64,000 nucleotides of DNA from Gemmatimonadota bacterium. Lineage in GTDB: Bacteria > Gemmatimonadota > Gemmatimonadetes > Gemmatimonadales > GWC2-71-9. Position numbers and translations under genes: made by a program. Below the pieces are notes generated by a model. That model was given only the letters and a program-made list of their open reading frames with translations, had not been told where the DNA came from and made no database searches. Location of the stretch: positions 62,001 through 126,000 of the forward strand of contig SHZT01000003.1 in assembly GCA_009692185.1 (NCBI GenBank), in the 5' to 3' direction. Of the stretch, positions 48,640 through 49,261 are shown piece after piece. Position 1 is the stretch's first letter. Each line of letters opens with the position of its first letter.

Positions 48640-48657
48640 GGCGGGAATATAGGGCGG

Positions 48658-48696
48658 TTCCTCACCCCCTGTCCCCTCTCGCATTCAGGAGAGGGG
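48658..48696. repeat. CTCACCCCCTGTCCCC hairpin repeat, copy 2
   Basis: 48658-48676 is identical over 19 bases to 20376-20394. The following hairpin (48673-48680 with 48689-48696) has eight pairs and an eight-base loop, so it is weaker than copy 1. It lies between the nadE start and the fluoride riboswitch. Confidence 0.72.
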
Positions 48697-48727
48697 GCAC
48701 GTAGGTTTGACCTGCGGATCGATTCGC

Positions 48728-48779
48728 CGGCCATGGAGTTCGCCGTTACCCGTCCACTTCCGGACTGATGACTCCTACC
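48728..48779 (+). promoter_or_regulatory. fluoride riboswitch (crcB motif)
   Basis: The aptamer reads CGGC-CATGGAGTTC-GCCG, then TTACCC, a GTCC/GGAC stem with loop ACTTCC, and the invariant CTGATGACTCCTAC. The pseudoknot pairs GGAGT (48735-48739) with ACTCC (48771-48775). One stem position (C48732/C48741) is mismatched where a G-C is usual. The 3' strand is shared with the terminator that follows, so fluoride binding should favour read-through into crcB. Confidence 0.88.
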
Positions 48780-48802
48780 GAACCTCTGGTGGGAGTCTTT
48801 TC
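48770..48802 (+). terminator. riboswitch-controlled terminator
   Basis: GACTCCTACC (48770-48779) pairs with GGTGGGAGTC (48788-48797) with one G-T wobble, followed by TTTT (48798-48801) one base before the crcB ATG. The left strand includes the pseudoknot bases of the fluoride aptamer, so the two structures are mutually exclusive. Confidence 0.88.
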
Positions 48803-49036
48803 ATGAAACTGGTCATCCTCCTCGCAATCGCCGGCGCGCTCGGCACACTGGCCCGGTATGGTCTCCAGGTCATCGGTTTCTGCGGCGCCTTCACGACGAT
48901 GAGCGCGTTTTCCTTCGAAACCGTTTCACTCTTCCAGCAGCAGCACTACGCCACGGCGGCGTGGTATGCCATCGCCTCGGTGGGCGGAAGCCTTGCCGCC
49001 ACGGTGGCAGGACTAGCGGCGGGCCGAGGCGCCTGA
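48803..49036 (+). CDS. crcB: fluoride channel CrcB/FluC with internal deletion
   Basis: A 77-residue frame. It begins MKLVILLAIAGALGTLARYGLQ, the CrcB N-terminal helix with GxLGxxxRY, and jumps directly to VIGFCGAFTTMSAFSFETVSL, the conserved GFCGxxTTFSTF helix, then the last helix. Roughly 45 residues that normally lie between (helix two with the Asn-containing GTLxxNxxG motif) are absent, so it is unlikely to form the usual dual-topology channel. The join is in frame. The riboswitch directly upstream confirms the identity. Confidence 0.85.
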   Translation: MKLVILLAIAGALGTLARYGLQVIGFCGAFTTMSAFSFETVSLFQQQHYATAAWYAIASVGGSLAATVAGLAAGRGA

Positions 49037-49049
49037 CCCGTTCCCTCTT

Positions 49050-49241
49050 CTACCGGCCCGTCACCACCTGTGAGTACCCGATCCCGTCCGGCGCCTGTCC
49101 CACGCTCATGTAACCGCGAATCGTCCGGGTCGCGATGTCTATGATGCTGGCGGTGTTGTCGCGCATGTTGGCGACGATGAGCGTACCCGACTCGGCCAGC
49201 GAGAAGCCAACGGCAAGCCAGGTGAGGAATGCAGATAGCAC
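49050..49241 (-). pseudogene. YVTN beta-propeller protein, N-terminal fragment
   Basis: A 63-residue frame from GTG 49241: a hydrophobic signal-like start (LSAFLTWLAVGFSLAESG) and one blade, TLIVANMRDNTASIIDIATRTIRGYMSVGQAPDGIGYS, in the YVTN-repeat style, then a stop. Full proteins have at least seven such blades. It is a truncated remnant or a misassembled end; the start is a guess because the frame is open upstream to 49385. Confidence 0.55.
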
Positions 49242-49261
49242 GTGTGAGACCCTGGGGGACC

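Follow-up and report, generated by a model that had tools for sequence, protein, structure and literature searches.

The window, a 64,000-nucleotide stretch of a Gemmatimonadota draft genome, carries on its forward strand a fluoride riboswitch followed directly by an internally shortened crcB gene (Table 1). The genome (2.63 Mb, 30 contigs, rated 99.94% complete) has no second crcB, and the riboswitch is the only one above the cut-off; a CLC gene and a DUF190 gene were searched for in the same genome and neither was found. The next gene-like open reading frames (ORFs) downstream of crcB lie on the opposite strand. An ORF at 49053-49250 on the minus strand joins a signal-peptide-like start to one propeller-like stretch (GTLIVANMRDNTASIIDIATRTIRG); it has weak matches in relatives and no Pfam match, and may be another shortened gene. 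Upstream of the riboswitch, a GC-rich palindromic repeat (CCCCTCTCGCATTCAGGAGAGGGG) occupies 48657-48701; about a dozen copies of it occur across the genome, and it is also present in relatives.

Table 1. Features of the riboswitch-crcB locus (window coordinates)
Feature	Position	Strand	Source
Fluoride (crcB) riboswitch aptamer	48720..48784	+	Rfam RF01734
P1 stem-loop GGCC-AUGGAGUU-CGCC, fourth pair mismatched (C·C)	48729..48744	+	
Expression-platform hairpin, with pseudoknot strand GACTCCTACC as its 5' arm and a Shine-Dalgarno-like GGGAG within its 3' arm	48770..48797	+	
TTTT tract following the hairpin, separated from the ATG by one base	48798..48801	+	
Remnant of crcB/FluC with 77 codons; 46 codons lost, frame kept	48803..49036	+	
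Deletion junction, ...RYGLQ to (V)IGFCGAF...	48868..48871	+	Alignment to the crcB genes of G001, L062 and L063

The shortened gene runs from an ATG at 48803 to a stop codon at 49034-49036. Its product matched the Pfam CRCB profile (PF02537) with 52.4 bits against a cut-off of 32.9, although this match covered profile positions 56-103 of 103 alone, with a weak additional piece (positions 2-19) ahead of it. Scores with the full-length NCBIfam CrcB equivalog models fell below their cut-offs (52.9 bits at best against 129; 42 against 80.45 for TIGR00494). Alignment with the intact crcB of a genome of the same genus (G001) revealed that 22 N-terminal codons of the G001 form are retained, that 46 codons are then absent without loss of frame, and that the sequence resumes at (V)IGFCGAF and continues to the end. 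The first-pass annotation, which had described a crcB gene lacking roughly 45 codons and the Asn motif of helix two but still in frame, was thus accurate on each of these points.

The absent stretch takes in TM2 completely, its conserved Asn included, together with the end of TM1 and the beginning of TM3. Compared with other CrcB/FluC channels, the window protein keeps most of TM1, the TM3 signature and TM4. The TM3 signature of FluC, GxxGGxTTFSTFxxE (PMC3755343), is present as GFCGAFTTMSAFSFE; it has A in place of G and M in place of F, two changes also seen in intact relatives, as well as A in place of T. FluC channels have four TM helices in 120-130 residues (PMC3755343), whereas the window protein has 77 residues and two predicted helices. 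In Fluc-Ec2 the TM2 Asn is N41, a residue that transport requires and one of the most strictly conserved (PMC5636608); according to the alignment, the equivalent position falls within the deleted stretch. A single-sequence AlphaFold model of the 77-residue protein, generated without an alignment, contained helices at residues 2-35 and 43-73 (mean pLDDT 73.7), suggesting a protein in which TM1 is fused to the TM3 remnant. Identity to the G001 gene was 0.76 at both the first and the second codon position and 0.50 at the third. This stronger conservation of the first two positions suggests that the remnant behaved as coding sequence through most of its separate evolution, being under selection until recently, and that the deletion is either recent or artificial.

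The aptamer ahead of this gene was recognized by the Rfam covariance model (RF01734, plus strand; 40.6 bits against a gathering threshold of 34, E = 8e-8). Both pseudoknot strands (GGAGT and ACTCC) and the UGAUGACUCC core are present, and the window riboswitch shares with other members of RF01734 the aptamer fold and a downstream hairpin that competes for the ACTCC strand. It differs from them in having lost the fourth pair of P1. When 26 riboswitches of the family, including that of the window, were compared, a four-pair P1 was formed in 25, with GGTG/CACC and GGGG/CCCC among the variant paired stems; the fourth pair was G-C in all 25 of these and C·C in the window alone, a mismatch that the Rfam match also flagged. 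In ViennaRNA calculations, the P1 stem of the window had an energy of -1.3 kcal/mol, compared with -5.1 kcal/mol for GGCG/CGCC, and the window riboswitch had the second-lowest score of the 27 above-cut-off family riboswitches listed. From the published structure, the fourth pair would adjoin the AUGG stretch near the pocket for fluoride and magnesium. The riboswitch, which had initially been called intact, has its pseudoknot preserved but is slightly damaged rather than fully intact.

We also examined the expression platform, which had been interpreted as a terminator overlapping the pseudoknot and ending one base before the start codon. The arrangement itself was confirmed: the 3' arm of the hairpin ends in GGGAGTC and is followed by TTTT, a single C and the ATG. 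Its assignment as a terminator was less secure, since a pattern scan found one terminator-like site where shuffled sequences gave a mean of 0.5 (sd 0.8), a count not clearly in excess of chance, and since the hairpin also holds the likely Shine-Dalgarno sequence. A GGAG copy in the 3' arm, often near a start codon, was found in 25 of the 26 compared riboswitches, whereas a run of at least four T after this arm was found in 16 and was lacking in that of G001 (AGGAGTCGTCTCATG). What nearly all of these leaders have in common is therefore the competitor strand and its Shine-Dalgarno-like core. Because the hairpin buries the GGGAG, the switch may act on translation in addition to transcription; judged from these sequence features, the support for a translational mode, alone or joined with termination, is no weaker than that for termination by itself.

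The state of crcB in relatives was assessed over about 100 genomes of the family. According to approximate counts read by hand from tables, with copies at contig ends left out, about 10 of 65 crcB copies were internally broken (in G000, G011, G025, G036, G063, G067, G075, G091, G092 and G094) and about 55 were intact. In contrast, none of 91 copies of the gene for ribosomal protein L20, which is of similar length, was internally broken; all 91 were full-length, and partial copies lay at contig ends (Fisher p = 1e-4 for crcB versus L20). The copies of G092, G075, G091, G036, G094, G011 and G067 resemble that of the window in being internal deletions or truncations, and at least two of them (G092 and G011) likewise stand behind a surviving fluoride riboswitch. 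Most broken copies of the family, however, have lost the frame or are fused to DUF190, whereas the deletion in the window is in frame. In a further genome (G020, locus L157), crcB is absent and the fluoride riboswitch leads straight into what is left of a DUF190 gene, its C-terminal tail.

Other arrangements were seen in relatives as well. A small ORF with no convincing Pfam match lies between the riboswitch and crcB at L064 (G001) and L148 (G087), for example MSANLLNPNQQRHLGVMLRLL...; at L162 (G005) and L159 (G035) the riboswitch precedes a membrane protein that looks by eye like a cation/proton antiporter; and at L168 (G096) a riboswitch-crcB unit is preceded, at a distance of about 1.5 kb, by another fluoride riboswitch, for which the stretch read contains no separate crcB.

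Taken together, we consider it probable that this is a dispensable fluoride-export unit, consisting of the riboswitch and crcB/FluC, in recent decay. The only FluC gene in the genome would have lost its core not long ago, when about 138 bases were deleted in frame, while the aptamer, as a second lesion independent of the deletion, would have lost one conserved base pair. The leader has the customary layout: in the absence of fluoride, the ACTCC strand would pair with the downstream GGGAGT, forming a terminator-like hairpin in which the ribosome-binding site is also buried; in its presence, the aptamer pseudoknot would hold ACTCC and the gene would be read. With P1 weakened and the competing hairpin strong (10-11 bp), the leader should be biased toward the "off" state. 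Any protein made would be a two-helix remnant, which presumably cannot conduct fluoride. Among the options raised by the first-pass annotation, a dead FluC has the strongest support, given the loss of the TM2 Asn and the many ways in which crcB is broken across a family whose L20 genes are unbroken; that annotation also called the dead FluC regulated, which the lesion in the aptamer itself makes doubtful. Several observations weigh against decay: the remnant has acquired no stop codon or frameshift, as decay would eventually bring; the deletion kept the frame, which has a one-in-three chance; the C·C mismatch concerns a single base; and the broken copies elsewhere are mostly in fragmented assemblies.

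An assembly deletion, the second option raised initially, is a possible but rather unlikely explanation. The living cells would then have a full crcB, from which the assembler dropped about 138 bases or in whose place it followed a minority strain. That the assembly is a draft of 30 contigs would fit this, and an in-frame loss with clean flanks would suit an artificial event as well as a recent one. Against this, when 72 genes of this genome were compared with their orthologues from a part of G001, none had an internal loss of 45 or more codons, one gap of 28 residues being present; apparent larger losses in two genes proved to be intergenic or to fall in shadow ORFs, and a genome-wide tendency to internal deletions was accordingly rejected. 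Random assembly errors should, moreover, strike L20 as often as crcB, but across the family crcB is often broken and L20 never internally, which favours biological decay. The additional lesion in the aptamer also argues against an artefact.

A shortened FluC-derived protein that has taken on a new role and is still switched by fluoride seems very improbable. The open frame, a plausible ribosome-binding site and the coding-like substitution pattern would fit such a protein, but TM2 and the required Asn are gone and the pattern agrees with decay elsewhere in the family. When the 77-residue protein was searched against genome contigs, only two matches were obtained, both to intact forms in Gemmatimonadetes relatives, and among the matches listed for 288 genomes of the order no other was contiguous over the short form. 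The suggested new role thus found no counterpart in the order among these matches, and a conserved short-FluC subfamily was rejected on the same grounds; the other short crcB copies of the family reflect out-of-frame deletions, frameshifts or contig ends instead. That a miniature two-helix protein under fluoride-riboswitch control could be useful without the channel core is a notion to which we give hardly any credence. It is least credible that the riboswitch is kept for its own sake and controls something besides crcB, as the small ORFs (G001 and G087) and antiporter-like proteins (G005 and G035) behind the riboswitches of relatives might suggest, since in the window the hairpin stops immediately ahead of the crcB start codon and the next gene-like ORFs beyond crcB are on the opposite strand.

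These findings caution that a riboswitch match together with a partial Pfam match does not amount to working fluoride resistance. More useful is the repeated breakage of crcB next to riboswitches that persist: loss or disruption of the fluoride exporter gene is frequent in this family even as its riboswitch lingers, which provides a small natural series for a riboswitch outliving its gene.
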